Source: Bacteroidales bacterium
GTDB taxonomy: Bacteria > Bacteroidota > Bacteroidia > Bacteroidales > GWF2-38-335
Direction: 5' to 3'
DNA: 34,161 nucleotides
NCBI GenBank assembly: GCA_016936815.1
Contig: JAFGXD010000136.1
Coordinates: 1 to 34,161, forward strand
A program made the position numbers and the translations under genes. This document shows, piece by piece, positions 2,434 through 25,662 of this stretch (its first letter is position 1; the number at the start of each line of letters is the position of its first letter). A model generated the notes under the pieces. That model did not search any database, was not told where the DNA came from, and saw nothing but the letters and a program-made list of their open reading frames with translations.

Positions 2434-2440
2434 AGTTATA

Positions 2441-2466
2441 AGCAACTAATTTTTTCAAACATCGTC
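2441..2466 (+). promoter_or_regulatory. Candidate ECF-sigma promoter of the sigma gene (autoregulation)
   Basis: A -35-like AGCAAC at 2441-2446 and a -10-like CGTC at 2463-2466 are separated by a 16-nt AT-rich spacer. The ATG of the sigma gene follows 20 nt downstream. The same bipartite motif precedes four other genes in this window. GC-rich -35 AAC and -10 CGTC elements at this spacing are typical of ECF sigma promoters in general; assignment to this particular sigma factor is inferred. Confidence 0.65.
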
Positions 2467-2486
2467 ATTGAGTCAAGACTGATTTT

Positions 2487-3077
2487 ATGGAATTTTCCTT
2501 ACCGGACGAACAAAAACAAATAATTGATGGATGCATAAAAGGCGACAGAAAATGTCAGCAACAGCTCCATAAATTGTTCTATGGTAAGATGTTGGCTGTT
2601 TGTTGTAGGTATGCTACCGATAGAGATGAGGCAAAAGATATTTTGCAAGACGGATTCATAAAAGTTTTTCAAAGAATAAAATCTTACGAAAGCAAAGGAG
2701 CATTGGAAGGTTGGGTTAGAAGAATAATAGTAAACAATGCAATAGATCACATTAGAAAGAAAAGAGATTTTGTTTTGTCGAATGAAGAAGACAGTCGATT
2801 AGAAAACCTTTCAGAAGAAAGCAGCGATATTCTCGAAGAAGAAAACTACACACAACTGAAAGCTGAAATAATAATGAATTTAATACAAAAGTTATCTCCT
2901 GCATACAAAGCTGTTTTTAATATGTATGTTTTGGAAAATCTATCTCATAAGGAAATAGCTGATATGTTGGGAATTAACGTAGGAACTTCTAAATCTAATT
3001 TGGCTAAAGCAAAAGCCAGATTAAAAGAAATGTTCGATGAATATGTAAATAATTGTAATAATCTAGGCAACTCTTAA
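2487..3077 (+). CDS. ECF-family RNA polymerase sigma factor
   Basis: A 196-residue sigma-70 family protein of the extracytoplasmic-function type, with only regions 2 and 4. Region 2 spans about residues 25-93, including DEAKDILQDGFIKVFQRI (region 2.2, core RNA polymerase binding) and GWVRRIIVNNAIDHIRKKR (2.3/2.4, -10 recognition). An acidic linker (about 96-122, SNEEDSRLENLSEESS) follows. Region 4 spans about 126-182, with the HTH in LSHKEIADMLGINVGTSKS (-35 recognition). The start at 2487 is chosen because the sequence begins directly at the family N-terminus and the candidate promoter lies just upstream. The next gene encodes a membrane protein of anti-sigma-like layout. I infer that this factor reads the ARGCAAC-N16/17-CGTC promoters found before its own gene, its partner and three adhesin operons. 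Confidence 0.93.
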   Translation: MEFSLPDEQKQIIDGCIKGDRKCQQQLHKLFYGKMLAVCCRYATDRDEAKDILQDGFIKVFQRIKSYESKGALEGWVRRIIVNNAIDHIRKKRDFVLSNEEDSRLENLSEESSDILEEENYTQLKAEIIMNLIQKLSPAYKAVFNMYVLENLSHKEIADMLGINVGTSKSNLAKAKARLKEMFDEYVNNCNNLGNS

Positions 3078-3091
3078 ACAAAACCTTCGTC
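3066..3091 (+). promoter_or_regulatory. Candidate ECF-sigma promoter of the anti-sigma-like gene, overlapping the sigma stop codon
   Basis: GGCAAC at 3066-3071 is also the Gly-Asn codon pair near the end of the sigma gene. A 16-nt spacer contains the sigma stop codon (3075-3077), and CGTC is at 3088-3091. The predicted transcription start would fall just before the TTG start at 3118. This gives the membrane partner its own copy of the motif besides any read-through from the sigma promoter. Confidence 0.58.
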
Positions 3092-3117
3092 TATTAGATG
3101 AAAAATGATAAAAAAAA

Positions 3118-4374
3118 TTGAAAGGCAATAAATTAAATATAGAACAATTCGTTAAGAACCAGCTCGATAACCACGAGTATTCTTATGATGCCGGAGAATG
3201 GGGAAAGTTAGAAAAAAAGCTTTCCGGTTCTAAATCGTCTTTTTTTAATAATCCCTTATCATATATTTCGGCAGCAATTATTGTCTTAGGTGTTATATTA
3301 ACTCTTAATTACACAAATAGCTTTGAAACTGAAAAACCGGTAAAATCGCAAAAAGTAATAGAACAAAACTTGTTGGAGAATATTACACTGCCTAAAAAGG
3401 AAGTTGCTGAAATTCTAATTGAGAAACCGACTGAAAAAATTGGTGAATCTCCTATAAATGAAAATCATACTAATAATAACGATTCTTCAGAGGATAGAAA
3501 TTTTATTCAAGAGGAAAAGAAAGAGACCGTAGAAAAATTTAAACTATTTGCAGAGGATCAAAAGGAATGTATTAAAGATATTGACAATAAAACAAATGAA
3601 GCAAAAGAACCTTGTGCATTGTTTGAAATTAATGTTCTTGAAGGCTGTGTTCCTTTGGAAATTGTTTTAACACCTTACGAAAAGTCAGATTCTATGGTCT
3701 ACTTGTGGGATTTTGGAAATGGATCAGTTTCTAATAAAATTTCCGGAAGATATAAGTATAATGAAGCCGGAAACTATAATGTTAGTCTAACAGTAAAGTA
3801 TTTTAAATCGGAAAAAGTTGTTACATATCGCTATAATCAGCCTGTTGTAGTAAATGCCGGTCCAAAAATTGATTTCGATTATGAAATAAACAATACAACT
3901 GCAAAATTTACTGTTTTGTCGGAACTGAATCTCGATTATTTATGGAAATTTGGCGATGGCAGTACATCTGATCAATTAAATCCCGAACATATTTATTCAA
4001 GAAGTGGTAATTTTAAAGTTGAACTTGAGGCAAAAGCTCAAAATTCATGTAAATCTGAATTTTCGAAAACAGTAAAAATTGAAAAGGAGAAAGATTACAT
4101 TATGCCGGAAGCCTTTAAGCCGGATGGAGATGGATTTAACGACTTCTTTGGACCTGTTTTCAGAACAACAGATTTAGTTTATTACGAGATGCAAATTTTT
4201 AACCAACACGGTCTTTTGGTTTTCACTACTAAAGATATTGATAAACCTTGGGACGGAAGGATTTTGGGAAGAAACGACATTTGCGATCAGGGAGTGTATG
4301 TTTTCGTAATAAAAACCACAGATAAATACGGAAATTCTCTAACCGAAAAAGGCCATTTTTCACTCCTAAAATAA
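3118..4374 (+). CDS. Anti-sigma-like single-pass membrane protein with PKD domains and a T9SS type-B-like C-terminal domain
   Basis: A 418-residue protein directly after the ECF sigma gene. Residues 1-45 are predicted cytoplasmic; the stretch FVKNQLDNHEYSYDAGEWGKL resembles the short N-termini, with a conserved Trp, of Bacteroidota anti-sigma-type membrane proteins. Residues about 47-66 (PLSYISAAIIVLGVILTLNY) form one transmembrane helix, and no signal peptide is seen. A Lys/Glu-rich linker runs to about 155. Two PKD-like domains follow: about 158-245 (YLWDFGNGSVS) and 248-325 (YLWKFGDGSTS). Residues about 328-418 match the gliding-motility/T9SS type-B C-terminal domain: EAFKPDGDGFNDFF, MQIFNQHGLLVF, WDGR, GVYVFVI, GHFSLLK. 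The start is TTG; in-frame TGA (3106) and TAA (3109) lie just upstream and no ATG fits. An anti-sigma role is inferred from position, topology and N-terminus. No classical ASD or FecR domain is recognisable. Confidence 0.75.
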   Translation: MKGNKLNIEQFVKNQLDNHEYSYDAGEWGKLEKKLSGSKSSFFNNPLSYISAAIIVLGVILTLNYTNSFETEKPVKSQKVIEQNLLENITLPKKEVAEILIEKPTEKIGESPINENHTNNNDSSEDRNFIQEEKKETVEKFKLFAEDQKECIKDIDNKTNEAKEPCALFEINVLEGCVPLEIVLTPYEKSDSMVYLWDFGNGSVSNKISGRYKYNEAGNYNVSLTVKYFKSEKVVTYRYNQPVVVNAGPKIDFDYEINNTTAKFTVLSELNLDYLWKFGDGSTSDQLNPEHIYSRSGNFKVELEAKAQNSCKSEFSKTVKIEKEKDYIMPEAFKPDGDGFNDFFGPVFRTTDLVYYEMQIFNQHGLLVFTTKDIDKPWDGRILGRNDICDQGVYVFVIKTTDKYGNSLTEKGHFSLLK

Positions 4375-4391
4375 AATCCGTATTACTACCT

Positions 4392-4407
4392 AAGTGATTT
4401 TCTTATC
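4392..4407 (+). terminator. Weak inverted repeat after the anti-sigma-like gene
   Basis: GTGAT and ATCAC form a 5-bp stem around a 6-nt loop, 17 bases after the stop at 4374. No strong T-run follows, so this is at best a weak terminator. Its left arm is part of a 13-base string (ACCTAAGTGATTT) that recurs at 18978-18990. Confidence 0.2.
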
Positions 4408-4523
4408 ACAAATTTCAATTCATTCATCATAAAAAATTAGGGGTTTTGTCAACAATTATTAAAATCTTCAATAGTCATTACCCTTTTGCCTAAATTAGCT
4501 TCATAAAATCTATGTATTTTCAA

Positions 4524-4549
4524 GGCAACCAATAGTAATTACTACCGTC
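4524..4549 (+). promoter_or_regulatory. Candidate ECF-sigma promoter of adhesin module A
   Basis: GGCAAC at 4524-4529, a 16-nt spacer and CGTC at 4546-4549 lie 40 nt before the ATG at 4590. The rest of the 4375-4589 gap is AT-rich and holds a short inverted repeat (4392-4407) but no gene. Confidence 0.6.
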
Positions 4550-4589
4550 TTGAGAATACGTAGTAGTAAGTACAATAAAACTAAATAAA

Positions 4590-5162
4590 ATGAAAAAATT
4601 ATTTCTTTCAATCGTTCTGGTAGCATTAGCAGTTTCCTTTACCTTTTCACAAGAAAAGAGAATTGACTTTAATTCTAATCCAATAAAATCGAAGGCCGAG
4701 GTTGAGAAACCGGGGTTTAGAGCAGTTTCTTTTGTTTTGCTTGGAATATCGAACGAAAGCAAGAAAATAGAGGTTCAGGAATTGCTTAATAACAGTGGAA
4801 TGGTTTCCGATTGTAAAGTTCAACTATCGGGAAAGTGTTTTATGTTTTTGAAAGAAGAAATTACAGCCGATGAACTTAGAGCCAATTATCTCTTACCAAA
4901 TTTGGTAGATTATGATTTTACTTCAGTTAAAATAATTGACAAGAGCTTATTGGGCAAAACACCGGCAAAACTTCCTGCTGATTATCCAAAGTTTATTAAT
5001 ACCGGAAACCCCGAAGCCGACAAGGCAGATTACGATGCAAGAAAAAAAGAATGGATTGAAAATAATCCTGAAGAATACAAGAAAATTTCGGAAGGAAATC
5101 CAAGCGAAGAGGAAAAAAGAAGAGAAGAAATTATTAAAATAGAAAAATCCAAATCTAACTAG
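4590..5162 (+). CDS. Small secreted protein with predicted ferredoxin/HMA-like core, partner of adhesin 1
   Basis: A 190-residue protein of no family I can name. Residues 1-20 (MKKLFLSIVLVALAVSFTFS, then Q) form a signal peptide. Residues about 43-120 read as a beta-alpha-beta-beta-alpha-beta pattern: VSFVLLGI, a helix with KKIEVQELLNN, CKVQL, KCFMFL, a helix with ADELRANYLL, and SVKIID. This would be a ferredoxin/HMA-like fold. No CxxC metal site is present, so a metal-chaperone role is unlikely. The C-terminal part has a PK-x3-TGN-x3-D-x3-Y-x6-W motif (PKFINTGNPEAD...Y...W) shared with the protein at 19006, then a charged Glu/Lys tail. It begins an operon with the giant adhesin 25 bases downstream and has its own candidate ECF promoter. 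Fold and partnership are inferences from sequence pattern and from recurrence of the arrangement three times. Confidence 0.8.
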   Translation: MKKLFLSIVLVALAVSFTFSQEKRIDFNSNPIKSKAEVEKPGFRAVSFVLLGISNESKKIEVQELLNNSGMVSDCKVQLSGKCFMFLKEEITADELRANYLLPNLVDYDFTSVKIIDKSLLGKTPAKLPADYPKFINTGNPEADKADYDARKKEWIENNPEEYKKISEGNPSEEEKRREEIIKIEKSKSN

Positions 5163-5187
5163 ACCCTACCTACCAAAACTAAATATC

Positions 5188-8100
5188 ATGAAGAAACGCA
5201 TTTTTTTGTTACTGACATTTGCCATTTTTTTCTTTCAAATTGCAAATTCGCAATGTTACAATTGTGACAGTAATTATCCTTCAGGAACAGCCTCAACAAC
5301 ATCTAGCACACTAACTACTGTTTCTACAATTATCTACGGTGGCGATTACTCGTATTACAATGTTACAATGGGGGAAACATATACATGGACAACTTGTGGA
5401 GATTCGGATTTCGATACGCAATTAACCCTTTTTAATACTACTTGTGGAGGAACAGTTTTAGATTATAGTGACGATGATTGCGGAACACAATCTACAATAA
5501 CATGGACGGCTACTTATACAGGAACTGTAGCCTTACTTGTTAGTCAGTACCCATGTACAACTAATACAACAAGTATGACGGTGCAATGGGCTTGTACATC
5601 TTGTGGAACAACTTCAGATATTTTAATTACAGGTTGCACCGGAAATTTCTACGATTTAGGTGGTGCAGCAGGTTCATACAGCAATAATGAATCTCAAACA
5701 TGGACTTTCTGTCCAGACAATCCCGGTTCTTTAATATCTGTTAATTTTACTACTTGGGATGTTGAGTCAGGTGGAAACTGGGATCAATTGCTTGTTTATA
5801 ACGGCAATAGTACTGCTGCGCCATACATGATTACCGGTGATGGATTAAACACTTTACTAGGAGTAGTGCAGGCAACTCCGGCAAACGTATCGGGTTGTTT
5901 AACATTTGAATGGTCTTCTGATGGGTCGGGAACTGCTCCCGGTTGGGCTGCAACTATTTCTTGCACAAATCCTTGTCAAGATATTATTGCCGTTTGGAAT
6001 GGAAGCAATCCTCCTGCAATTTACGATGCTGTTGACGGTTCATATTATATCGACATTTGCGCAGGAGAAACAGTTACTTTTAACGCTTATGGAAATTATC
6101 CGGAAAATGGAACAAGTTATACCCAATCTGATGCAACTTCAACTTTCTCATGGAATTTTGATGATGGAGCTACAGGAACTGGAACAACAGTAAATCACAC
6201 ATATAATACAGAAGGAGGATTCGATGTAGATCTTACTATTACTGATATTACGGGTTGTATTAATGCAAATGATATTGGTGTAAGGGTAAGAGTGTCTACA
6301 ACACCAATTTTTGCTGGAACAATGTCGAATGATTATAGTATTTGTGTTGGGGAATGTGCAAACTTAACAGGAGTTGTTACCCCTCAGCTTTGGCAATATC
6401 CTAGTAGTCAAACTTGGGCAGGAACTACTTTCCTTCCAGACGGTAGCGGTGTTTCCTATACTACAGGTTTAACTTTCGATGAGTTTAATCCGGGACAAAC
6501 TGTAACATCAATAAATGATATTGACGAGATTTGTCTTAATATGGAACATTCTTATGTGGGCGACCTTGATGTTTATATTGAATGTCCTAATGGTCAAACA
6601 ACCCAACTTTTCGATACTTATAACGGAGTAGGGAGTTCAGAATATTTGGGTGAGGCCACAGACTATTCTTCAAATCCCGGTGTTGGATACGATTATTGTT
6701 TCTCGCCAACATCAACAAATGGAACATTTATTGATTTGATTAATGGAGGTGCACCAACTTATAGCTATGTTGATGCTGATGGAAATACTGTAACTTCTCA
6801 TGCTTATATTCCGGCAGGAACCTATGAAGCAGAAGGAAACTGGGCTAATCTTATTGGCTGCCCATTAAATGGAACTTGGACAATTCACGTAACCGACCAT
6901 TTAAGTGCTGATGATGGTTATATATTCTCATGGGGCATTGGTTTCGATCCTTCTCTTTATCCAACAATGTGGGATTTTACTCCAACGGTTGTTTCTCAAT
7001 CATGGTCGGGTAACGGTGTTGGAGCAGGAAACCCAACAACAGCATGTCCTACTTCCACAGGTAATATGTCTTATGTTTATTCAATAACTGATAATTTTGG
7101 TTGTACTTATGACACCACAATAACTATAACCGTTTCATCACTTACAATAACTACCAGTCAGGTTAATGTTTCCTGCTTTGGTGGTTCTAATGGTTCTGCC
7201 ACTGTAACTTCTGCATCAGGTGGCACAGCACCCTATTCTTATACATGGTCTCCTAATGTTTCTTCCGGCAATTCTGCAACAGGATTAGCCGCAGGAACAT
7301 ATTCGGTTACCGTTAACGATGCAACAGGCTGTGGAGCAATTAACTCGTTTACAATTACCCAACCTGCCGCAATGTCTTATTCAACAAGTACTACAGCCGA
7401 CAACTGCGGAGCATGCGATGGTACTGCAACCGTTGGTGCTGTTAGTGGTGGCACAGCTCCATATACTTATTTATGGCAGGGTGGACAAACTACTAGTCCT
7501 GCAACAAACTTATGTGCAGGAACTTATAGTGTTGTTGTAACAGACGCTGCCGGTTGTACAATTGGTAATTCTGCAACTGTTACCGGAACAGGTAGTGTTA
7601 CAGCAGGCTTTACTTACAATGGAAACCAGTGTCTGAACGGTGGTGCTAATAGTTATTGTTTTACCAACACCGGCACATCTGGTGTTTCATACTCATGGAA
7701 CTTTGGCGATGGAGTTGGAACATCAACTGCTCCAAACCCTTGCTATTCTTATACAAGCACCGGAACTTATACCGTAACTCAAACTGTTATAGATGGTGCT
7801 TGCACAGATGTGGCTACTATGAATGTTACTGTTTATGCTCATCCTACACTTACAATTACTGTAACAGATGCCACTTGTAACGGCTCCTGTAACGGAACTG
7901 CAACTGCAACACCTTCAGGCGGTTCAGGAACATATAACTATCAATGGGCTGCCGGTGCGGGAAGTCAAACTACCCAAACTGCAACTGCTTTGTGCGCAGG
8001 AACATACGGAATAACTGTTAACGACACCTATGGTTGTTCCGTAACCGGTTCTGCAACTATATCTGAACCAGTGGGAATAACTCTAACAGCATCAAGTAGT

Positions 8101-11100
8101 AACGTAGTTTGTAATGGAGCTTGTGATGGAACTGCTCAGGTTATTGCTGCCGGTGGTACAGGTGCTTATGTATATTCCTGGAGCAATAGTGGATCAACGG
8201 CCAATATTACAGGTCTTTGTCCCGGAACCTACACTGTTTCTGTTTACGATGCAGCCGATTTAACTTGTTTTGAAACTGAGACGGTTGTTATTACAGAACC
8301 CGCTGCTATGGTTCTTTCAGGATCTTCAGTTGATGCAACTTGCGGAATGTCAAATGGTTCAGCAACAGTTTCTGTTACATCAGGAGGAACTGCTCCTTTT
8401 GGTTACTTATGGAATGCAGCTGCCGGTGGACAAACTACTGCAACAGCTACTAATTTGGCCGCAGGTTCTTATCAGGTTGTTGTTAACGATGCAGTTGGAT
8501 GTACTGCTACAACAACTGTTAACGTAAACGATGCCGGCTCCCCAACTGCAAGTATTTCATCAACAACAAACGTTAGTTGTAATGGTTTATGCGATGGCTC
8601 TGCAACGGTGACATTAGGAGGAACTCTTAACCCCGATTTCGACTATTTATGGTCTACCGGAGCATCAACAAATAATTCAGTATTAACAACAAATACAATA
8701 AACGGACTTTGCGCCGGTTCAATAACAGTAACAGTTACTGATGTAAATGGATGTGTGGCAACTGCAACTACAACTATTACAGAAGCACCTGCATTAACTG
8801 CTACAACAACAGTTACTAACGCTAATTGCGGTCAACCCGACGGTAGTGCAACTGCTAGTGCTTCAGGTGGAACAGGAGGCTATTCTTACCAATGGGATGC
8901 TGCTGCTGCAAATCAAATAACAGCAACTGCCTCTAATCTTAGTGCCGGATTATATTGGGTTGTGGTAACAGATGCTGCAGGTTGTACATTTACTGTTTCA
9001 GCAAACGTGGGAGATATTGGCGGAATGACTTCAATTACAGGAACATCGGCTAATGTTTTATGTAACGGTGGTTCTACCGGAACAGCTACAGCTACACCTG
9101 TAGGAGGAACTCCTCCATACGATTATTTATGGGACTCAAATGCCGCAAATCAGATAACTCAAACAGCAAGCGGATTGGCTGCAAATACTTATTCTGTAAC
9201 TGTTACCGATGATAATGGTTGCATTTTGGTGGGTTCTGTTACCGTTAACCAACCCTCTGCTGTTGTTGCTTCAATTTCAGCCCAAACACCTGCTCTTTGT
9301 AACGGTCAGGCTAGTGGAACGGCTACTGCTGCAGGGGCAGGAGGAATTGCTCCTTACACATACCAGTGGTCGGGAGGAACTGCTCCTACATCACAAACAA
9401 ATACAGGTCTTGCAGCAGGAACATATTCGGTAACTGTTTATGATTCAAATTTATGCCCTTCAATAACTTCAGTTACAATTACTGAACCAACAGCTATAAA
9501 CATTACAACTACAGCAACAGATGAGAATTGTTTTCAATGCAATGGTGCTGTTGCAACATCGGTAACCGGTGGAACAAACCCATATTCTTATGCCTGGAGT
9601 GGTTTAGCTGCAGGTCAGACTACTCCAACTGCTTCTAATTTGTGTTCAGCTTCATATACTGTAACTGTTACAGATGGAAATGGATGTTCCGCTCAGGCAA
9701 CCGATGTGGTTACAAATATTCCTGCAGGAACTGCAACAATTTCTTCATTTCACAATGTGTCATGTAACGGACTTTGCGATGGAGATGCAACGGTAAGTAT
9801 TGGAGGAGGAACTGCTCCTTATTCATATATTTGGTCTGCTTCAGCAGGAAGTCAAACCGGAACTAATGCAATTAATTTATGTGCCGGAGTTCATTCTGTA
9901 TCTGTAACCGATAATGTTGGCTGCCTTGTAACAGTCTCTGTAACAATAACCGAACCTCTTGTTCTAACAACTACTTCAACAGTTACAGACTTAAATTGCT
10001 TTAATGTTTGTGAGGGAAGCATAGTTGCAAATCCTTCAGGTGGAACAATTCCCTATTCCTACCAATGGGATGGAATGTTAATTACAACACCCTCTGCCAC
10101 AAATTTATGTGCGGGTAGTTATACTTTTACAGTAACCGATAATAACGGTTGCTCCGTTTCCTTAACACAAACTGTTAATAATGCAGATTCTATCGAGATT
10201 ACAGGAATAGTTACAAATGCCAATTGTGGTCAGGCCGACGGTGAAATTGATATTACCGTAACCGGAGGAACCGGTCCGTATACATATTGGTGGATAACGA
10301 CTTCAACACCAAATCTTGAAGACCAAACAGGACTTGCAGCAAACACCTACACTGTAGTTGTAACAGATTCAAAATCGTGTACAAATCAACTAACTTTTAC
10401 AGTTGGAGATATAGATGGACCTTCTGCTTCAATTGGGTCATTTACAAATGTATCTTGTAACGGTGATTGCGATGGAACGGCAACTGTTTCGCCTTTAGGG
10501 GGAAGCGGAATGTATGGTTTTCAGTGGTCTGCATCAGCGGGTTCTCAAAATACAATTACTGCAACGAACCTATGTGCAGGAATTCACAATATTACAGTAA
10601 CAGATATGTCGAATGGATGTATTGCAACATCAACTGTTACTATTACCGAACCTGCTGCTTTAGCCTACACAATTACTGATACAGACCCAAGCTGTAACGC
10701 AATTTATGGCGCTTGCAACGGAGAGGCCTCAGTTAATGTTATTGGAGGAACTACACCATATTCTTACTTATGGACAGGTCCGGGATTAGGTGCCGGTAAT
10801 ACCAATTCTAGTGTAAGTTCTTTATGTGCAGGCAATTATTCTCTATTGGTTAGTGATGCCAATGGTTGTAATCTAATGCAGAATTTCACCTTAGTTGAAC
10901 CACCTTTTATTAATCTTACATTTAGCACAATAGACGAACAATGTTCGGGAGCATGCGATGGCGAGGCTCTTGTAATTCCTTCGGGAGGAACAGGACCCGG
11001 CTACACATATCAGTGGGATGCAAATGCTGAAAATCAAACATCTGCAAATGCTGTTGGACTTTGTGCCGGAAACTATCAGGTAACAGTTTACGATGAAAAT

Positions 11101-15375: not shown

Positions 15376-18300
15376 TTAGGAAGTAATTTTTATACCAATA
15401 ACTAAAACATCGTCAACTTGTTCTAGTTCTCCTCTCCAATTTTCAATATTTTCGTCAAGAAAATCTCTTTGTTTTTTCATAGGCATACCATGAATTGTAA
15501 GCAAAAGATGTCGGAATCTTCTATACTTAAACTTCTTACCTAAAGGTCCGCCAAATTGGTCGGGGTATCCATCGGTAAAAATATAGAGAACATCATTTTC
15601 CTGATATGGCATAGAATGGCTTTCAAATATTCTGCTTTCGTCTTCGTCGGAAACCATTCCAACGGAAAATCTATTGCTACGAATTTCAATTATGTCGTTG
15701 TTTCTAACCAAAAATAGAGGGTTAAAAGCTCCCGAAAATTCAATCATTTTTTCATTTTTATCAATAACTAAAAGAGCTATATCCATTCCGTCTTTTACTG
15801 TATCATCTTCGGTATTTTTGCTAAATGTTTCAGAAACCCCAATGTTAAGTCTGTTTAATATTTCTGCCGGATCGTCTACTCCTTGATCTACAGTAATATT
15901 TCTAAGTAAATCGAAGCCAATAATACTCATAAAAGCTCCAGGTACCCCATGTCCTGTGCAATCTACAGCTGCAATGTATATTTTATTTCTCTTTTCAGTT
16001 ATCCAGTAAAAGTCTCCTGAAACAATATCTTTTGGTTTATAGAGAATAAAAAATTCAGGTAATAGTTTTCTAAACAGATATTTAGAAGGCATCATTGCTT
16101 GTTGAATCCGTTTTGCATAGTTTATGCTATCTGTAATGTTTTTGTTTTTAACCGTTAGCTCTTCCTTTTGTTTTGCAATTTCTAAGGCTGCAAGTTGTTT
16201 TTCTCTAAGAATGTGATTTGCTTTTTTAAGGCTTTTGGTTCTAAATTCAATGAATAGATAAAATAATAAACCAACAAAAACAACATATAGGATGTAAGCA
16301 ATATTTGTACGCCAAAAAGGTGGTTCAATTACTATTTTTAATTCAATGGGTTCTGTATTCCAAACCCCATCGTTATTGGAAGCAATAAGTTTAAAAGTGT
16401 ATTCTCCGGTAGGAATATTAGTAAAAGTAACTTTGTGTTGTGTTCCAATATCAATCCATTCATCTTCGAGGCCAACCATCATATATTTATATTGGTTTCT
16501 TTCCGGTTTAGTAAATTCTAAAGCAGAAAATTCTATTGTAAACATATTTTCTTTGTGGTTGAGAACAATTTTTTCGCCGTTGCTAATTGAGAATTCTTCG
16601 TTTCCCGTTGTTCTATTTTTAATGAATGAAGTAAAAATCATTTTTGGAATAAAGTTATTGTCAACAAGTGAATCGGGGTAGAAGGCATTAAGACCGTTTG
16701 TTCCTCCAAAAAATAATTCTCCATCGAAAGAAAAATGACTGGCTCCGTTGTTAAATTCATAATCCTGAAGCCCATCGTCGGGTTCGAAGGATCTTATTTT
16801 TCCTGTTTCCTTATTTAATACTGCAATCCCTCTTCTGGTACTTACCCAAATATTATCGTGAAAGTCTATTTGAATCTGATAAATTGTAGCATCGGGAAGA
16901 CCATCTTCTTTGGTATAGCGAGTAAAAACATCTTTATTTTTGTCGTATTTGTTTAGTCCCCCATCTGTACCTATCCATAAATAGCCTTCTCGGTCTTCAG
17001 CGAGGCAGAAAATAGTATTGTGGCTAATAGAATTTTCGGATTTAGGATTGTTTTTAAACTGTCGAAATTTATCGGTTCCTGAATTGTACATATTTAGTCC
17101 ACCTGTAAATGTCCCAACCCAGAGCACACCGTCTCTGTCAACACATAAAGAATAGATTTTATTTACGGAAAGTGTTGATGAATCGTTAATATTTGCATAC
17201 TTACTAACTATTTCCATTGAATCGAGATTGATTTTATGCAATCCACTATAAGAGGCTACCCAAATATTATTTTTGAAATCTTCTTTTATTGAATATATCC
17301 TATTAGAGTTGAAGTTTGGATAATATTTTCCGGTAAAATAATCTTTCAAATCATCAAAGCTGTTGTTTTTGGTATTATATAAATTAATGCCATTTCTTGT
17401 TCCTAACCAAATCCTGCTTTTGCTATCTTTATAAATAACATGAACGAAATTATTGGCAATTTTGGACTTGCCCGATAATTCTTCCCTATAATGAGTAACC
17501 TCATGGGTTTTTCTGTTAAAAACATCAAGGCCTTTTCCCCATGTTCCAATCCAAATTGTATCGGAATTAGGTTTGTAAATAGAGGCTATTATCTCATAAG
17601 ATAAATCTACTGCGTGTTTTCCTGAACTTGGTCGGTATGTTATGAACTTCTTTCTCTTCAGATTCGTTTTATCGATGCCTTTTGCATCTGTACCAATCCA
17701 TAAATTATTAGAATTATCTTCGAATAAAGCTCTAATGGTATTGTTGCTAATACTTTCTCTGTTGGCGCTATTATGAAAAAAACTATGAAAGCGCTCTGTT
17801 TTTTTATCGAATTTGTTTAAGCCGGAAGCTGTTCCAACCCAAATATTGCCATTATAATCCTGAATTATTTCAAAAATATCATTATCACTAAGGCTGTAAG
17901 AATCGAATGGGTTATGAAAATATTTTTTCTCAATTTGATTTGTTTTAATATTGAATTTGTTGAGTCCGTTTTTTGTTCCAATCCACAAAAATCCCTCATC
18001 ATCTTGCATCAAAGCGGTAACATTATTATCCGAAAGTGATTGGGGGTTATCTTCGTCGTTTCGCAATCTTAAAGTATATTCTTCGAAACTCTTGTGAAAT
18101 CTGTTTACACCTTCTGTAGAACCAATCCACAAATAGCCTTCATTATCTTGAATAATTGGAAATTTCCTGTCAGGGTCTTTGTTATTATTAAATCTGTCTA
18201 TTCTCTGTTCAAAAAAATTAAATTTCCCTGTTTTCTTATTAAGTTTATTTAGAGCGCTGAAAGTTTTTACCCATACAACGTTATCTGAATCAACGTAAAT

Positions 18301-18720
18301 ACCGTAAACAGAAACGTCGTTGAGGCTTGATAAATCATAAGGGTCGTGCTTATATTGTTTAACCTCTTTTCTATCTTTGGAAACCATATTTAATCCATTT
18401 TTGGTCCCCACCCATATATTACCTTCCTTATCTTCTGCCATACAAAGAACCCAATTATCGGTAAGCGATATTTTTCCCTTTGCATTATATTGAATGGAAG
18501 AAAAACTATAACCATCGAATTTGTTAATCCCGGCTTGAGTTCCAAACCACATGAATCCTTCAGAGTCTTGTAAAATACAATTTATTGTAGCCTGAGAAAG
18601 CCCATCCCTGTTGGAATAATTGTCGAAACTGTAAGAGTCGTCCTGAGCTACGGATGCCAAGGTAAGAAGCAGAGCCGGCAAATAGAATAATAGTTTTTTC
18701 AAGTCATTTTTTATTATCAA
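15376..18720 (-). CDS. Two-component-regulator propeller sensor with PP2C (SpoIIE-type) serine phosphatase output
   Basis: An 1114-residue membrane signalling protein. A signal peptide or N-terminal anchor (about 1-25, ending ASVAQ) is followed by 14 Reg_prop blades (about 30-690), each with a D-x-x-G-x-x-W-[IV]-G-T core such as DNEGYLWIGS. These would make two seven-bladed propellers in the periplasm. A Y_Y_Y-type beta-sandwich follows (about 715-795, FSALEFTKPERNQYKYMM), then one transmembrane helix (about 805-825, YILYVVFVGLLFYLFIEF) and a coiled coil. The cytoplasmic PP2C/SpoIIE domain is about 870-1114: VSGDFYW, DCTGHGVPGAFMS, DGMD, FTDGYPDQFGG and VDDVLVIG carry the metal-binding Asp residues. 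Most propeller sensors of this kind end in a histidine kinase; this one has a phosphatase and no kinase domain. The Ser/Thr-phosphorylated target is unknown. It is the first gene of a two-gene minus-strand unit. Confidence 0.93.
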   Translation of the reverse strand: MIIKNDLKKLLFYLPALLLTLASVAQDDSYSFDNYSNRDGLSQATINCILQDSEGFMWFGTQAGINKFDGYSFSSIQYNAKGKISLTDNWVLCMAEDKEGNIWVGTKNGLNMVSKDRKEVKQYKHDPYDLSSLNDVSVYGIYVDSDNVVWVKTFSALNKLNKKTGKFNFFEQRIDRFNNNKDPDRKFPIIQDNEGYLWIGSTEGVNRFHKSFEEYTLRLRNDEDNPQSLSDNNVTALMQDDEGFLWIGTKNGLNKFNIKTNQIEKKYFHNPFDSYSLSDNDIFEIIQDYNGNIWVGTASGLNKFDKKTERFHSFFHNSANRESISNNTIRALFEDNSNNLWIGTDAKGIDKTNLKRKKFITYRPSSGKHAVDLSYEIIASIYKPNSDTIWIGTWGKGLDVFNRKTHEVTHYREELSGKSKIANNFVHVIYKDSKSRIWLGTRNGINLYNTKNNSFDDLKDYFTGKYYPNFNSNRIYSIKEDFKNNIWVASYSGLHKINLDSMEIVSKYANINDSSTLSVNKIYSLCVDRDGVLWVGTFTGGLNMYNSGTDKFRQFKNNPKSENSISHNTIFCLAEDREGYLWIGTDGGLNKYDKNKDVFTRYTKEDGLPDATIYQIQIDFHDNIWVSTRRGIAVLNKETGKIRSFEPDDGLQDYEFNNGASHFSFDGELFFGGTNGLNAFYPDSLVDNNFIPKMIFTSFIKNRTTGNEEFSISNGEKIVLNHKENMFTIEFSALEFTKPERNQYKYMMVGLEDEWIDIGTQHKVTFTNIPTGEYTFKLIASNNDGVWNTEPIELKIVIEPPFWRTNIAYILYVVFVGLLFYLFIEFRTKSLKKANHILREKQLAALEIAKQKEELTVKNKNITDSINYAKRIQQAMMPSKYLFRKLLPEFFILYKPKDIVSGDFYWITEKRNKIYIAAVDCTGHGVPGAFMSIIGFDLLRNITVDQGVDDPAEILNRLNIGVSETFSKNTEDDTVKDGMDIALLVIDKNEKMIEFSGAFNPLFLVRNNDIIEIRSNRFSVGMVSDEDESRIFESHSMPYQENDVLYIFTDGYPDQFGGPLGKKFKYRRFRHLLLTIHGMPMKKQRDFLDENIENWRGELEQVDDVLVIGIKITS

Positions 18721-18908: not shown

Positions 18909-18945
18909 AATAATACATATACAGCACAAAATATTTGCTCTTCAA

Positions 18946-18972
18946 GGCAACTTTATATATTTTTCATCCGTC
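18946..18972 (+). promoter_or_regulatory. Candidate ECF-sigma promoter of adhesin module B
   Basis: GGCAAC at 18946-18951, a 17-nt AT-rich spacer and CGTC at 18969-18972 lie 33 nt before the ATG at 19006. This copy has a spacer one base longer than the other four. The remainder of the 18721-19005 gap, between divergent genes, shows no ORF or RNA gene. Confidence 0.6.
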
Positions 18973-19005
18973 ATTTCACCTAAGTGATTTGATTGAACAA
19001 ATTAT

Positions 19006-19524: not shown

Positions 19525-22500
19525 GATACTTAACTATTTTTGCATTAATGTTATTTTTAGCAACCGAGCTTCGATCGCAGGTTGCCGACGATTACTGTGA
19601 AACTGCAACACCAATTTGCGATTTTAACGGTTATTATGGAAACACAAGTGCTACTTATACACCCTTAGTAAGCCCTTCTAACAGTTCCGACGAGGATGAT
19701 ACTCCCCTTGGTGGTGTTTTTTGTGGTTCAATTGAAAACAACTCATGGCTACAATTTATGGCTGCCGATAATACTGCTACATTGGATGTTCAGACCTATA
19801 ACTGCTCTTATGGAGATGGCATTCAAATGGAAATATACGAAACAACAGATTGTTATAATTTTTCATCTATCTCAAATTGCGAAAACTCGGGAGTTGAAAC
19901 CGATTTTGAAATTGTTGCCAGTCCACTTACTCCGGGAGAAATTTATTATCTTATGATTGACGGACAAGCCGGAGACGTTTGCGAATATACAATTACAGCT
20001 TTGGAAGGAGTTTTGGCGGCTGAGGCATATATTGGTTCTCCCGGAACCCTTTCGGGTAACATTTGCATGGGAGAATCTGTTCAACTTCATGCAGAGGGAG
20101 GTACAAATTATTCATGGACTCCTACAACCGGTTTAGATGATCCAAATGTTGCGGAACCTTTTGCTAATCCTACAACTACAACAACCTATACTGTTGAAGT
20201 TTCCGGTCTTAATCCATGGTGCCCTGCTGCTACTGCGGAGGTGGTAGTAATAGTTGATGATTGTGGTTGCATGACTAGTGCCGGGCCTGATGTTGAGTTA
20301 TGTGGCTTAGTATACAATCACATGAATGCATCAACAATTGCAGGAGATTACAATACAGGTTGGTCAACTGCAAGTGGAGGTGTAAGTTATTCAAATATTA
20401 ATAGCCCGACTACCGTTGTTACTGTTACAACTCCAGGAACCTATACCTTTACTTGGTCTGTAACAAACGCTGCCGGTTCAACTTGCACAGATGATGTTAT
20501 TGTGAAATTTAATGAAACTCCTACTTCAACATTTACGGTAACTCCTGTTTCTTGTTTTGGAGGTACAACCACTGTTAATTATACAGGAACAGGTCCATTT
20601 GATGCTACTTACGATTGGGATTTTGATGGAGGAACAATAGTTTCAGGTTCAGGACAAGGACCTTACCAAATTTCCTGGGCAACAAGCGGAAATCATACTA
20701 TTTCTCTAACAGTTACAGAATCAGGTTGTGTTTCAACAGTTTATACCCAAACACTTAACTACCCAAACGACCTTATTACCTCTGTAACCGTAAACGACGT
20801 TGATTGTGCTGCCGGCTCAAATGGTAGTGTAGATTTAACCATTTCGGGTGGAACAGGTGGAACAACAGTAAGTTGGTCTGATCCTGCAGGCCCCCCATTC
20901 CCCGCAGGAAATTATTCTGTGACTGTTACAGATGGAAATGGTTGTCAGGATGTTATTCCTTTTACCGTTACCGAACCTAACTCAATTACCGTTACTCCTT
21001 CTTATACAGATTTGCTTTGCTATGACGACAATAGTGGAACCGGTTCAGTAGATGTTGTGGGTGGTACACCGCCATACACTTATATATGGCCAAACGGAAG
21101 TACTACAAATTCTTCAAGCGGTCTTGCTGCAGGTTCTCATACAGTAACAGTTGTTGATAATAACAGTTGTACAGTTTATAATACAATTACATTAAATCAA
21201 CCAACTCAGGTAACTGCTAGCATAAGTAATGTTGTTAATGCCACATGCAACGGTTTCTGTGATGGCACAGCCACTGTTTCTCCCGGAGGTGGTACTGCTC
21301 CATACTCACAGCTTTGGTCTAATTCTCAAATTACTTCTACCGCCATAGATTTATGTCTTGGTACATATAATGTTACAGTGGCTGATAATAATGGTTGTAC
21401 TGCTTCTACCTCGGCAGTAATTTCAGAACCTTCGGCAATGGTTACAGATATTACTGGAACAGATATTTCGTGTTTTGGTGGAAATGATGGAACAATCTCA
21501 GTAACTGCCACAGGAGGAGAAAACCCATTTTTTTATCAATGGAATCCAGCCCTCTCAAACTCACCTAACCAAAGCGGTTTACAAGCAGGAACTTATCAGG
21601 TAACAATTAATGATGCAAATGGTTGTACTGCTTTGGAAAGTATTACTTTAACTGAACCGGCTACACCCTTAACATCTACTATTTCTGGCTCTGATATTTT
21701 ATGTAATGGCGACTTAACAGGCTCGGTCGATCTTTCTCCTTCAGGAGGAACACCCGGCTATACATTTTTATGGTCGAATTTTATGACATCGGAAGATCTT
21801 ACAAATGTTGGTGCTTCAAACTATTTTGTAACAATTACCGATGCCAATGGTTGTAAGGCCTATAATAATTTTGAGGTTTCTGAGCCAACAGCATTGTCAT
21901 TTACTACCTCAGCTAATACCTGGATTTGTATTGGACAATCAACCATAATATCAGCGTCGGCAAGTGGTGGAGTTGCACCTTATACTTATTATTGGGATGG
22001 AATGGCCGGAACAGCTTCACAAATGGTTAATCCGGGGACTACTCAAACCTATTCAGTATACGTTATGGATGCAAGTGGTTGTATTACCGGAACAAAATAT
22101 GTTACCATAAATGTTCATCCCCCACTTTGGGTTGATGCAATGCCTGAATCTCAATTAATTTGCCCGGGTGAAAATGCTTCAATTTCTGTTTCTTACGGCG
22201 GAGGCGATGGGGGTCCTTACATTTTGGGAATGGATGGTGAGCTATATCTTTCTCCACCTTTTATTGTTTCTCCTTTAAATAATACTCAGTATATTATTTC
22301 AGTTGACGATTTTTGTGGAACCGGAACGGCCTACGATACGGTTGAGGTTTTGGTTGCTGAAGTACCACCTTCCGGATTTTATTCCAACAATATTAGTGGT
22401 TGCGAACCTTATGAAGTAGGATTTTCTGTATTAAGTCCCGATGCCGATAATACTTACTTTTGGGATTATGGAGATGGTGATATAAGTTTTTCGGGAAATA

Positions 22501-23165
22501 ATACTAATCCAACACATGAGTATGACAATTATGGGGTTTTTACTGTTTCACTTACTGTTACATCACCAGATGGTTGTGTTTCAAATACCACATACGAAAA
22601 CATGGTAACAATTTACGAAACACCAACGGCCAGTTTTAGACCCGACCCAAGCTCCACAACAATTATTAAGCCTTTGGTTTTCTTCCATAATATGTCTTCT
22701 CACACGTATTTCAGCCTTTGGGATTTTGGCGATGGCGATTCATCAAGTATCACTTCTCCGGTTCATGTTTATGGAGATACAGGTACTTTTGAAGTTCAAC
22801 TCGTGGTAATAACTGAAAACGGATGTAAGGATACCATTGAAAGTCTGGTATTTATTGAAGATGAATTAACTTTTTATGCTCCTTCAGCCTTTACACCAAA
22901 TTTGGACAACAAAAATGATGTGTTCTTTGTTTGGGGACATGGAATAGATGATAATAATTTCCAAATGTTTATTTACGACAGATGGGGTGAAGTAATTTAT
23001 GAAACCAACCAGTATAGCTCTGAACATCCCGCAATGTTTGGGTGGAATGGTAAAGTAAAAGGTAAGCATCTGGCCGAATCCGGAACATATTCATGGCTAG
23101 TAATTTTCCGGGATATTAGGGGTGTACAACACGAAAAAGCAGGCCCTGTAACTGTAATTAGATAA
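19521..23165 (+). CDS. Adhesin 2: SprB-repeat surface protein with T9SS type-B C-terminal domain (1214 aa)
   Basis: Signal peptide about 1-20 (ending ELRSQ). An N-terminal Cys-rich beta-domain (about 21-155: DDYCETATPIC, NNSWLQFMA, GIQMEIYE, GEIYYLMIDG) is of the kind seen at the start of many type-B adhesins and may bind a ligand. Ig-like domains follow (about 160-335), then PKD (about 338-412, YDWDFDGG). Five SprB repeats (416-789) are followed by two Ig-like domains, two PKD domains (YFWDYGDGD, SLWDFGDGD) and the type-B C-terminal domain (1118-1214: FYAPSAFTPNLDNKND, MFIYDRWGEVIYET, GWNGKVKG, VTVIR). Its layout and many sequence blocks match adhesin 3, so the two are paralogues. Predicted to be exported by Sec and T9SS. 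It is coupled to the upstream small-protein gene by an ATGA overlap, with another small-protein gene 16 bases downstream. Confidence 0.92.
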   Translation: MRYLTIFALMLFLATELRSQVADDYCETATPICDFNGYYGNTSATYTPLVSPSNSSDEDDTPLGGVFCGSIENNSWLQFMAADNTATLDVQTYNCSYGDGIQMEIYETTDCYNFSSISNCENSGVETDFEIVASPLTPGEIYYLMIDGQAGDVCEYTITALEGVLAAEAYIGSPGTLSGNICMGESVQLHAEGGTNYSWTPTTGLDDPNVAEPFANPTTTTTYTVEVSGLNPWCPAATAEVVVIVDDCGCMTSAGPDVELCGLVYNHMNASTIAGDYNTGWSTASGGVSYSNINSPTTVVTVTTPGTYTFTWSVTNAAGSTCTDDVIVKFNETPTSTFTVTPVSCFGGTTTVNYTGTGPFDATYDWDFDGGTIVSGSGQGPYQISWATSGNHTISLTVTESGCVSTVYTQTLNYPNDLITSVTVNDVDCAAGSNGSVDLTISGGTGGTTVSWSDPAGPPFPAGNYSVTVTDGNGCQDVIPFTVTEPNSITVTPSYTDLLCYDDNSGTGSVDVVGGTPPYTYIWPNGSTTNSSSGLAAGSHTVTVVDNNSCTVYNTITLNQPTQVTASISNVVNATCNGFCDGTATVSPGGGTAPYSQLWSNSQITSTAIDLCLGTYNVTVADNNGCTASTSAVISEPSAMVTDITGTDISCFGGNDGTISVTATGGENPFFYQWNPALSNSPNQSGLQAGTYQVTINDANGCTALESITLTEPATPLTSTISGSDILCNGDLTGSVDLSPSGGTPGYTFLWSNFMTSEDLTNVGASNYFVTITDANGCKAYNNFEVSEPTALSFTTSANTWICIGQSTIISASASGGVAPYTYYWDGMAGTASQMVNPGTTQTYSVYVMDASGCITGTKYVTINVHPPLWVDAMPESQLICPGENASISVSYGGGDGGPYILGMDGELYLSPPFIVSPLNNTQYIISVDDFCGTGTAYDTVEVLVAEVPPSGFYSNNISGCEPYEVGFSVLSPDADNTYFWDYGDGDISFSGNNTNPTHEYDNYGVFTVSLTVTSPDGCVSNTTYENMVTIYETPTASFRPDPSSTTIIKPLVFFHNMSSHTYFSLWDFGDGDSSSITSPVHVYGDTGTFEVQLVVITENGCKDTIESLVFIEDELTFYAPSAFTPNLDNKNDVFFVWGHGIDDNNFQMFIYDRWGEVIYETNQYSSEHPAMFGWNGKVKGKHLAESGTYSWLVIFRDIRGVQHEKAGPVTVIR
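20766..21887 (+). repeat. SprB-type repeat array, 5 units, in adhesin 2
   Basis: Five protein-level units of about 75 residues (416-789). The first unit is atypical: SWSDPAGPPFPAG replaces the usual PY-x-Y-x-W core, and the same variant opens the array of adhesin 3. The remaining units carry GGT-x-P-Y, D-x-N-G-C and EP/QP boundaries. Confidence 0.85.
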
Positions 23166-23181
23166 TTTAATAAATAGAAAT

Positions 23182-23592
23182 ATGAGAACCTTATTAGTAG
23201 TTTTAGCAATTATGACCTTATCGACATTAGTTGCACAAAATCAAGATGTTACAATTCATATTACAAGTAAATCCGATAAAATTTTCGGCAAAGATATTGA
23301 TGGTAATAAAGCAATTTCATTTTACCTTGAAGGTTTAAATGATGAGTTGGCGGTTACCCGTTTTACCGAAAAGATTCTTAAAAACGATTTTGTAATTGAT
23401 TTCGATATTATCCCTGCCACATTCAATGGAAAAAGAAAAGCTACAGTTGTTTTTAAACCTACAGTTCGAACATTGTATTTTCAAAGCCTTTTGCAAAATT
23501 TGGGAGTTACAAAAATTGTAATCGACAACCAAGAAATTCCGGTAACAGGACTAGTTGATTGGGCAGAAAAGAAAAAAGAAGAGAAGAATTAG
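23182..23592 (+). CDS. Small secreted protein with predicted ferredoxin/HMA-like core, last gene of module B
   Basis: A 136-residue protein with a signal peptide (about 1-18, MRTLLVVLAIMTLSTLVA, then QN). The core again suggests beta-alpha-beta-beta-alpha-beta: ISFYLEGLN, helix with ELAVTRFTEKIL, FVIDFDII, KATVVFKP, helix with LYFQSLLQNLG, TKIVIDN. It lacks the third-strand Cys and the TGN...Y...W motif of two of its relatives and ends in a short Lys/Glu tail. It follows adhesin 2 by 16 bases with no promoter of its own visible, so it is probably the third gene of the operon. It converges with the minus-strand GT-C gene, whose stop is only 5 bases away. Function unknown. Confidence 0.75.
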   Translation: MRTLLVVLAIMTLSTLVAQNQDVTIHITSKSDKIFGKDIDGNKAISFYLEGLNDELAVTRFTEKILKNDFVIDFDIIPATFNGKRKATVVFKPTVRTLYFQSLLQNLGVTKIVIDNQEIPVTGLVDWAEKKKEEKN

Positions 23593-23597
23593 CAACC

Positions 23598-25574
23598 TTA
23601 TTTTCTGGTGGATTTCGCAGCAAGGCGTTTATAATGCCTTGCTTTTTCGTTTTTACCTTTCTTGTCGAAATAGTCCGATAATAGATTGCAAACCTTGTAA
23701 TTATCAGGGTTTTTCTTAATTGCTGTTTCTGCATACTTTATGGCCTGATCGATTTCTCCCTTCATATATAAGAAATTTGCAATATTAATGTATGGCAAAT
23801 CGCTTTCCGGTGCAATTTTCATTATTCTCTCATTCATTTCCTTTGCAAGATCAAAATTCCCTCTTTTATTTTCAATTTTTGAAAGTTGAGATATTGCTTC
23901 AATATGAGAACTGTCTATTATTATCACTTCTTGCCAATATTTATACGATTGGTCGAAATTGTTTTGTAATTCATAAACTTTTCCAATATTCATTAATGCT
24001 TTAGTATCTTTAGGACTAAATTTCAATACGTTTTTATAACAGATAATTGCAGAATCGTAATTGTGATAGAAATTTGAATACATGCTACCTAAATTAATCC
24101 AAGTTTTTTGGTTTTCGAAATATAAATCAAGAGATCTGTAATAACATCGTTTTGCTGTTTCAATTTTCTTAATTTTCGATTTCAAATCCTTGCCTGAATT
24201 AAAATCTTTATAAACATCATCCATAATTATGAAGGCCATTAACTCATTAGCTTTTACCGATTTTTCGAGTTTTGGCATATCAGCAGTGTATAGAGTTTCA
24301 TGATCTTTCCAATTAGTATTTCTAAAAACCGTTTTGCATCCGTAAAAAATAACTATTATCAGCAAAATTGCAATAATACTTGTCGTTTTATACGCAGAAA
24401 CAAGAATCTTTTTCCCGTTCTCATTAAAAATTCTATACAAAGCTAAAACTAAAAGAATACTAAAACTAAATGAACCAACAAAAACAAAACGTTCTCCCAC
24501 AATGCCCATAACAGGTTGCAGTACATTTAAGTATATTGAAACTGAAATTAAATAAAAAAGTATTGAGAAGGATAAAATAGATTTTCGTTTGAACCCCAAA
24601 ATAGCATAAACCAATAAAGCTAAATGTATTAAAATTGAAGCGATTACTGCAGGGTCTCCTAAGTCGGGCATGGGAACTTCATTGTATCCATAATAATATT
24701 TTAACGGGTGAGGAAAAAGAAGAAAGCCCAAATAATACCATCCCGACAAAAATCCTAAAGCAAATCGTTTAACTATTCCTCCATCATAAAACAAAGGATT
24801 TTCGTAATAATCGATAGGCCTGTTTCCTCCGGTGAGGAAAGTTCTGGGCAGATATTTTAATATTACTGAAACTACTAAAATTGCTAATAGAAAAATAAGA
24901 ATTTTACGCATTTTCATATCGGTAAAAAAGTAAAGACTTAGTGGTATTAATAAGAAAAAAACCACAATACCCTGTTTTGAAAAATACCCGGCAATAAAAA
25001 GCAATAATGCAAAGACAATAAATTTAATTTTCTTTAAATCAGCATATCTTAGTAAAAATAATAGAGAAGAAAAACCACATAAATCCGATAATAATTGATC
25101 TCTGTTTTTTAAACTGGCAACAACTTCTGTATGAATGGGATGGGCAGCAAAAATAATAGTTATAAGCAATGGAATAATTGGATGGTAGTCTCTTAATATT
25201 CTTTTCAGAATTAGCAAAATAACCACAAGAAGTAAAAAATAGAGTAAAACATTAATTGTGTGACTAACATGTGGATTTATGCCAAATATTCCGGTTTCTA
25301 TTGCAAAACTGAGTTTTACTAGAGGTCTGTAGCCAAAATTTTTTTCGCCAATATCCGAATAATGAGAAACTAGTATTTGAGGGATGCCTGCAAAACCTTT
25401 TTCTACAAGTGGGTGATTGTAAACAACGTACTCATCATCTAATGAATATTTGTTTGGAATTGTATTTCCATATAAAACAAAGCAAAGAACCAATAACAAT
25501 AAGTATTGATGTCGTGTTTTGTTTATTATTGAAGTCATTTGGTTGTTAGTTTTAGGTTGCGATAAAAATAACAT
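23598..25574 (-). CDS. TMTC-like GT-C membrane protein with C-terminal TPR repeats
   Basis: Up to 658 residues; an alternative start at Met13 (25538, MTSIINK) puts the first membrane helix nearer the N-terminus and is equally plausible. The first extracytoplasmic loop has the acidic DDEYVV motif (Asp46, Asp47) expected of GT-C glycosyltransferases, followed by FGYRPLVKLSF. HPIHTEVVASLKNRDQLL (about 145-162) matches the TMTC/DUF1736 group of predicted O-mannosyltransferases. About ten hydrophobic helices extend to about residue 405. The C-terminal 190 residues contain about five TPR units (such as WINLGSMYSNFYHNYDSAIICY). Such enzymes move sugar from a lipid-linked donor to proteins on the periplasmic side. 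Acceptors here are unknown; the Thr/Ser-rich adhesins on both sides are an obvious guess but unproven. It is divergent from module C across a 111-base gap. Confidence 0.82.
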   Translation of the reverse strand: MLFLSQPKTNNQMTSIINKTRHQYLLLLVLCFVLYGNTIPNKYSLDDEYVVYNHPLVEKGFAGIPQILVSHYSDIGEKNFGYRPLVKLSFAIETGIFGINPHVSHTINVLLYFLLLVVILLILKRILRDYHPIIPLLITIIFAAHPIHTEVVASLKNRDQLLSDLCGFSSLLFLLRYADLKKIKFIVFALLLFIAGYFSKQGIVVFFLLIPLSLYFFTDMKMRKILIFLLAILVVSVILKYLPRTFLTGGNRPIDYYENPLFYDGGIVKRFALGFLSGWYYLGFLLFPHPLKYYYGYNEVPMPDLGDPAVIASILIHLALLVYAILGFKRKSILSFSILFYLISVSIYLNVLQPVMGIVGERFVFVGSFSFSILLVLALYRIFNENGKKILVSAYKTTSIIAILLIIVIFYGCKTVFRNTNWKDHETLYTADMPKLEKSVKANELMAFIIMDDVYKDFNSGKDLKSKIKKIETAKRCYYRSLDLYFENQKTWINLGSMYSNFYHNYDSAIICYKNVLKFSPKDTKALMNIGKVYELQNNFDQSYKYWQEVIIIDSSHIEAISQLSKIENKRGNFDLAKEMNERIMKIAPESDLPYINIANFLYMKGEIDQAIKYAETAIKKNPDNYKVCNLLSDYFDKKGKNEKARHYKRLAAKSTRK

Positions 25575-25636
25575 TTTTTTTTGTTTCAGTAAAATAATTA
25601 TATATTAGCTTTTTATTTAAGGAAAATAAGCAATTA

Positions 25637-25662
25637 AGCAACCCAATTTGTTTTTTTTCGTC
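25637..25662 (+). promoter_or_regulatory. Candidate ECF-sigma promoter of adhesin module C
   Basis: AGCAAC at 25637-25642, a 16-nt spacer ending in eight Ts, and CGTC at 25659-25662 lie 23 nt before the ATG at 25686. This is the fifth copy of the motif. It lies in the 111-base region between divergent genes and points toward module C. Confidence 0.6.

Follow-up and report, generated by a model that had tools for sequence, protein, structure and literature searches.

A 34,161-nt stretch of DNA from a Bacteroidales bacterium (contig JAFGXD010000136.1 of assembly GCA_016936815.1, hereafter the window) encodes an extracytoplasmic function (ECF) sigma factor, a membrane protein that directly follows it and three adhesin operons, and one promoter motif stands before each of these five units. 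The explanation that best fits the whole, and which we consider probably right, is that the sigma factor reads this motif, activates its own gene and drives a genome-wide regulon of type IX secretion system (T9SS) cargo, while the membrane partner is a cargo-like anti-sigma factor that would couple transcription of the cargo to its export or docking. The genome is a 3.58 Mb draft of 192 contigs, in which the window is the contig labelled C78; among named relatives 'Bacteroidetes bacterium GWF2_38_335' is nearest, its sigma factor being 73% identical.

A pattern search of both strands of the window for ARGCAAC-N16/17-CGTC returned five matches, all on the coding strand (Table 1), against a chance expectation of 0.04 (mean of 300 dinucleotide shuffles of the window, maximum 1). 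Letter-permuted boxes gave the same mean of 0.04 with a maximum of 2 matches, and the looser pattern GCAAC-N14-18-CGTC retrieved the same five sites and none besides. By their sequence the five sites are ECF-type promoters, with a predicted -35 element GGCAAC and -10 element CGTC. The initial annotation had listed these sites, placed them 20–40 nt before start codons and estimated fewer than one chance match; the sites, their placement and the estimate all stand, except that the start coordinates given there have to be moved back by one base to take in all of ARGCAAC. The spacers and the flanking sequence vary among the five copies, and the site in front of the partner gene overlaps the 3′ end of the sigma gene. 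Domain scans confirmed the identity of the membrane partner and of the three adhesin operons, each of them motif-led. No exact copy of the motif was found at the minus-strand genes of the window or at the plus-strand PKD protein/protease gene at 30476, again as annotated, and scans of the window for Rfam families and tRNAs gave no matches.

Pattern searches of the whole genome, with inspection of the retrieved stretches around all sites, revealed a much wider regulon. GCAAC-N16/17-CGTC occurs at 31 sites, compared with 15 for the reversed pattern. Sixteen of the 31 stand before genes at the start of transcription units, 15 of them at a distance of 17–52 nt and the one on contig C33 at about 115 nt; the remaining 15, equal in number to the control, lie within or antisense to coding sequence or have no gene behind them. 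As at least 11 of the promoter-like copies lead transcription units outside the window, the 'local regulon' of the initial annotation is not upheld. Apart from the unit of the sigma factor itself, each of the 15 motif-led units encodes a protein with a T9SS C-terminal domain. The units outside the window carry T9SS cargo throughout, non-adhesins such as gingipain-like peptidases among them, and the motif also leads unrelated peptidase and esterase-like genes.

The motif is distributed unevenly over the two classes of sorting domain, of which the genome has at least 150 matches of type A and at least 36 of type B (PorP/SprF-like matches number at least 13). It stands before 11 of the 36 type B genes, a count that takes in the sigma factor's own site 651 nt before the partner start, and before 4 of 150 scored type A matches; this preference for type B has a Fisher P of 3e-6, or 0.002 when the window's contig is set aside. 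Likewise, 11 of the 31 sites, again counting that of the sigma factor, lie near the start of genes for the type B domain CHU_C, where 0.18 would be expected. A genome-wide regulon of T9SS cargo, consisting mostly of type B giant SprB-repeat adhesins with a few type A enzymes, is thus well supported at the level of sequence. Two further ideas were dropped: that motif-less operons use the primary-sigma box TAnnTTTG instead (6/17 versus 4/16, no difference), and that motif-led adhesins avoid PorP-like neighbours, as such a neighbour and the motif occur together only at C87:281 and the numbers are too small for a claim of avoidance.

The sigma protein, with Sigma70_r2, Sigma70_r4_2 and TIGR02937 above cut-off, consists of regions 2 and 4 only. 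We collected 83 close homologs, comprising the window's own, 80 from other genome contigs and two from relatives. The exact motif lies within 250 nt upstream of the sigma gene in 55 of them, compared with a mean of 0.23 (maximum 7) for letter-permuted motifs and 0 in reverse orientation. With GCA[AT]C-N15-17-CGT[CT], a latitude chosen after subgroups with AGGCATCC and with CGTT had been seen, the count is 79 of 83, spread over many Bacteroidota lineages, and the upstream consensus reads (A/T)GGCA(A/T)CC-N15-CGTC(T/A). The same relaxed motif precedes none of 33 more distant ECF sigma genes, a set that takes in 13 further sigma loci from the window's own genome. Because of this difference between close and distant homologs, the sigma factor of the window is the best-supported reader of the motif, and it is probably autoregulated through a promoter with an AAC-type -35 and a CGT-type -10 element, in agreement with the initial annotation.

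Distant lineages retain the motif before the sigma gene although the flanks are not conserved. On a tree of the homologs, which was built by a quick method and has moderate support for single branches, its presence requires 3 changes compared with 24 after shuffling and defines one main motif-bearing clade, so that the earlier proposal that this sigma factor drives all five window sites gains comparative support. Three of the four motif-less homologs (L149, L150 and L155) have partners without a recognised CHU_C, and the fourth, L156, has CGTA. In a group of metagenome-assembled Flavobacteriales genomes (L080, L082, L085, L100, L113 and similar loci) the -35 box is AGGCATCC in place of AGGCAACC, about 110–130 nt from the sigma start adopted in the present analysis. 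Another ECF gene of the same genome, L042 (C91:5317-5508), has GTAAC-N16-CGTC in front, possibly an autoregulatory motif of another kind that shares the -10 element.

The association with adhesin genes recurs in relatives. Among the matches listed, sites near CHU_C gene starts number 8/52 in a same-genus species (0.20 expected), 4/30 in Cryomorpha ignava (0.11 expected) and 5/16 in a distant Flavobacteriales genome (0.09 expected); these site counts are approximate, those for Cryomorpha cover part of the sites, and, of the four genomes compared (this one and the three relatives), three have the sigma factor's own site within their CHU_C count. The raw number of motifs in the relatives' genomes showed no excess over the reversed control, high-GC genomes being rich in chance matches, so that evidence is taken solely from where the sites lie with respect to CHU_C genes. 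The initial annotation had raised the prospect that a genome scan would find the motif common and unrelated to adhesin genes; instead, the sites cluster near CHU_C starts. The same-genus species keeps the order sigma factor, partner, adhesin with the motif before each, and the genome of C. ignava, a cultivable relative, contains the sigma factor, the partner and motif-led adhesin genes. Around 77 homologous sigma loci, 5 large CHU_C genes have the motif between -150 and +120 of their start versus 0 for the reversed pattern, with a mean of 0.19 and a maximum of 2 for permuted motifs; a looser interval gave 6 matches versus 6 in the reversed control. We can claim a local clustering of motif-led adhesins around the sigma gene weakly at most, and it does not appear to be general.

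The partner of the sigma factor has features that the initial annotation overlooked, namely a T9SS type B domain and an N-terminus in common with partners that end in barrels. About 45 residues with two predicted helices precede a transmembrane helix (46-67), residues 69-140 form a predicted disordered tether (predicted local distance difference test, pLDDT, below 50), and behind it come two PKD domains and, at residues 329-412, CHU_C, modelled at high confidence. The CHU_C match is above cut-off in both libraries (PF13585, 44.7 bits, cut-off 27; TIGR04131 Bac_Flav_CTERM, 35.5 bits, cut-off 35), and in Pfam scans 28 of 35 aligned homologs have PKD and 25 of 35 have CHU_C. A Foldseek search returned PKD/Ig-like matches, GhpA of Aureispira included, that cover part of the model only and say nothing on function.

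The N-terminal segment, in which Y23 and W28 are conserved in the homolog alignment, aligns with the barrel-type partners of related sigma factors over 43 columns (hhalign probability 96.9); by Pfam those proteins end in outer-membrane beta-barrels. We call them Dma-like by architecture, as distinct from a direct comparison with Dma1. Dma proteins, which are encoded next to ECF21 sigma factors and control them in Bacteroides, have the order anti-sigma domain, transmembrane helix, tether, barrel (PMC13088901). The barrel-type partners of related sigma factors suggest a kinship of the present one with the ECF21 group. The partner gene also adjoins the sigma gene as the next gene across many lineages, and we infer that its product is the anti-sigma factor of this sigma factor. 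A distant ECF, L240 (G036:C110:23407-23931; 41% identical), also has a CHU_C-tailed partner, and no GCAAC/CGTC motif was found at its locus; the exchange of barrel for T9SS domain may therefore have happened more than once.

Put together, these features suggest a possible mechanism. The sigma factor would read its promoters throughout the genome and activate its own gene, while the short cytoplasmic domain of the partner would hold it at the inner membrane, which the single helix would span. The tether of 72 residues, about 26 nm when extended (0.36 nm per residue), would cross the periplasm and place the PKD domains and the adhesin-like type B sorting domain at its far end. Type B domains depend on SprA and bind to PorP-like barrels (PMC9143113), so such a tip could engage the T9SS translocon or dock at a PorP/SprF-like outer-membrane barrel. 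Docking of the tip, its displacement by real cargo, or pulling might then alter the grip of the anti-sigma domain on the sigma factor, and cargo transcription would thereby track export or docking capacity. Both the stimulus at the tip and the direction of the response are speculative, and docking could either release or hold the sigma factor. The specific idea that a cargo-mimicking anti-sigma factor gauges export or docking capacity and so sets T9SS cargo transcription genome-wide is accordingly a tentative one, to which we give slightly less than even weight; in its logic it would be analogous to the export-coupled control of flagellar late genes.

The signal is also the point at which another reading competes most closely. 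The sigma factor might answer an external or envelope-stress signal through the PKD domains, which are common binding modules, with the T9SS merely positioning the tip at the surface. In Bacteroides, both vesiculation and polysaccharide-utilisation loci respond to Dma2 (PMC13088901), and for PorA, which itself has a T9SS C-terminal domain, a role in passing a surface signal on to PorXY-SigP has been suggested (PMC7712824), so this reading deserves a substantial minority share of our confidence. The match in sorting domain between the anti-sigma factor and nearly all regulon products points instead to export coupling, if only suggestively. That the partner is just an ordinary surface protein secreted by the T9SS, with an N-terminal signal peptide and no control over the sigma factor, is quite improbable. 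It does resemble the adhesins in its PKD domains and type B sorting domain, and like a cargo gene its gene has a promoter copy to itself in the window; however, that separate copy is found only here and in the same-genus species L077, the other homologs having none, whereas the place of the partner next to the sigma gene persists in many lineages. Moreover, the roughly 45 residues before the hydrophobic helix have conserved positions and share homology with the cytoplasmic segment of barrel-type partners; they indicate a probable signal anchor rather than a cleavable signal peptide.

The identity of the reader of the motif is the other matter on which views could differ. AAC and CGTC elements are common among ECFs, and most other ECFs recognise related ones. 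The genome has about 14 ECFs, and the GTAAC-N16-CGTC before L042 makes cross-reading by them possible. The CGT box of SM6 in Flavobacterium psychrophilum, moreover, is thought to be common to several ECFs (PMC9723704). The motif could thus be a general consensus for which the window's sigma factor is one reader among several or a minor one, yet its absence from the other sigma loci of the genome, set against its presence at nearly all close homologs, makes this unlikely. A chance or repeat-derived origin, with the motif copied along with adhesin operons that are indeed paralogous in layout within the window, has a negligible probability: the spacers and flanks differ, and we regard it as ruled out by the conservation at sigma homologs in distant lineages with unconserved flanks, the sites before unrelated peptidase and esterase-like genes, and the positions at CHU_C starts in four genomes.

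Several further observations weigh against our preferred explanation of a cargo regulon under a cargo-like anti-sigma factor. Only about one-third of the type B cargo genes bear the motif, and the relaxed form that reaches nearly all close homologs was fixed after the fact. The anti-sigma role is argued from homology over a 43-residue region, and in Cryomorpha-like lineages the C-terminal domain of the partner is too degenerate for Pfam. Finally, the five motif-led CHU_C genes near homologous sigma loci come from about three lineages.

The remaining features of the window are collected in Table 1. YceG-like and phosphomannomutase-like genes precede the sigma gene, its partner and the three adhesin units, each of which combines SprB repeats, PKD and CHU_C and is headed by a small secreted protein. 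Another small-protein gene lies directly 3′ of the second adhesin, so that this operon seems to be three-gene. Several of the small proteins share a C-terminal motif of the type [LI]P.[DS]FPKY.[DN]TGNP..D...Y...K..WI..NPE; they include those heading the first two window units, others at C87:6928-7107, C107:8740-8883 and on C9, and members in the same-genus genome, and this family had no match in Pfam or NCBIfam. The AlphaFold model of the small protein (pLDDT 59.7) suggests, with low confidence, a possible ferredoxin-like beta-alpha-beta-beta-alpha-beta order before the motif. Between two adhesin operons, on the opposite strand, sits a Reg_prop beta-propeller/Y_Y_Y/SpoIIE-phosphatase protein, and the gene for a PHP-domain protein follows downstream on that strand; a membrane protein with TPR is a further opposite-strand gene.

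Table 1. Positions of the motif copies and genes in the window, and motif-led units on other contigs of the genome
Feature	Position	Strand	Details
Motif AAGCAAC-N16-CGTC	2440..2466	+	20 nt before sigma gene; predicted autoregulation; upstream motif kept in 79/83 close homologs
ECF sigma factor, 196 aa	2487..3077	+	Sigma70_r2, Sigma70_r4_2; tree
Motif AGGCAAC-N16-CGTC	3065..3091	+	26 nt before partner start
Membrane partner, 418 aa, proposed anti-sigma factor	3118..4374	+	TTG start; domain scans, predicted structure, homolog alignment
Motif AGGCAAC-N16-CGTC	4523..4549	+	40 nt before 4590
Small secreted protein, 190 aa	4590..5162	+	no Pfam/NCBIfam match; C-terminal FPKY.NTGNP-type motif common to several such proteins
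Giant adhesin, 3021 aa	5188..14253	+	24 SprB repeats, PKD domains, CHU_C T9SS type B signal
Reg_prop/Y_Y_Y/SpoIIE-phosphatase protein	15376..18720	-	
Motif AGGCAAC-N17-CGTC	18945..18972	+	33 nt before 19006
Small secreted protein, 172 aa	19006..19524	+	
Adhesin, 1214 aa	19521..23165	+	SprB repeats, PKD, CHU_C
Small secreted protein, 136 aa	23182..23592	+	likely third gene of second adhesin operon
Motif AAGCAAC-N16-CGTC	25636..25662	+	23 nt before 25686
Small secreted protein, 191 aa	25686..26261	+	
Adhesin	26284..30222	+	SprB repeats, PKD, CHU_C; open reading frame listed from 26149, signal peptide from ATG 26284
CHU_C adhesins, motif-led	C52, C87 (two), C100, C126, C180		3/6 with small secreted protein in front
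Gingipain-like peptidases, motif-led	C73, C185		type A tails
Type A-tail genes, motif-led	C81, C162		
Small protein and 1775-aa protein, motif-led	C33		tail type A-like by eye

How Bacteroidota match the costly output of giant adhesins to the capacity of the T9SS is little understood. The locus offers a sigma factor apparently devoted to T9SS cargo and a conserved promoter usable for genome scans, and the candidate sensor tip, which copies the sorting domain of the cargo, leads to a specific feedback hypothesis. If true, a cargo-mimicking anti-sigma factor would be expected across Flavobacteriales and related Bacteroidota.

The closest known architecture is that of Dma (PMC13088901), which has the same adjacent ECF sigma factor, N-terminal cytoplasmic domain, single transmembrane helix, long disordered tether and outer-membrane-directed C-terminal module. 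The present partner differs in that the place of the beta-barrel is taken by a T9SS type B domain preceded by two PKD domains, for which reason we do not file it as a Dma, and its regulon is T9SS cargo rather than vesiculation and polysaccharide-utilisation genes. We describe it as a variant of ECF/anti-sigma signalling. A literature search, which covered few subscription papers, found neither an anti-sigma factor bearing a T9SS sorting domain nor an ECF regulon of T9SS cargo, and in the literature covered the exchange of barrel for secretion tag appears undescribed.

In Porphyromonas gingivalis, too, a T9SS C-terminal-domain protein, PorA, feeds an ECF sigma factor, SigP, that governs T9SS genes (PMC7712824, PMC4800418). 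That chain runs via the two-component system PorXY, whereas the partner described here has its own sigma-facing domain and transmembrane helix; SigP controls mainly the T9SS machinery rather than cargo, and its proposed motif is unlike GGCAAC/CGTC. SM6 of F. psychrophilum is similar in its CGT -10 box, in having an ECF/anti-sigma operon as one of its targets and in its link to the T9SS, but it drives genes for the machinery, for example gldN and porU, and the sprB operon of that species uses sigma-54 and SM5 promoters instead (PMC9723704). The regulon products resemble SprB in their repeats and CHU_C type B domains, and differ from the SprB/SprF arrangement in that most motif-controlled adhesin genes have no adjoining PorP/SprF-like gene and many are led by an uncharacterised small secreted protein. 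Earlier work thus ties ECF sigma factors to the T9SS machinery, while the sigma factor described here is linked by its predicted promoters to T9SS cargo.

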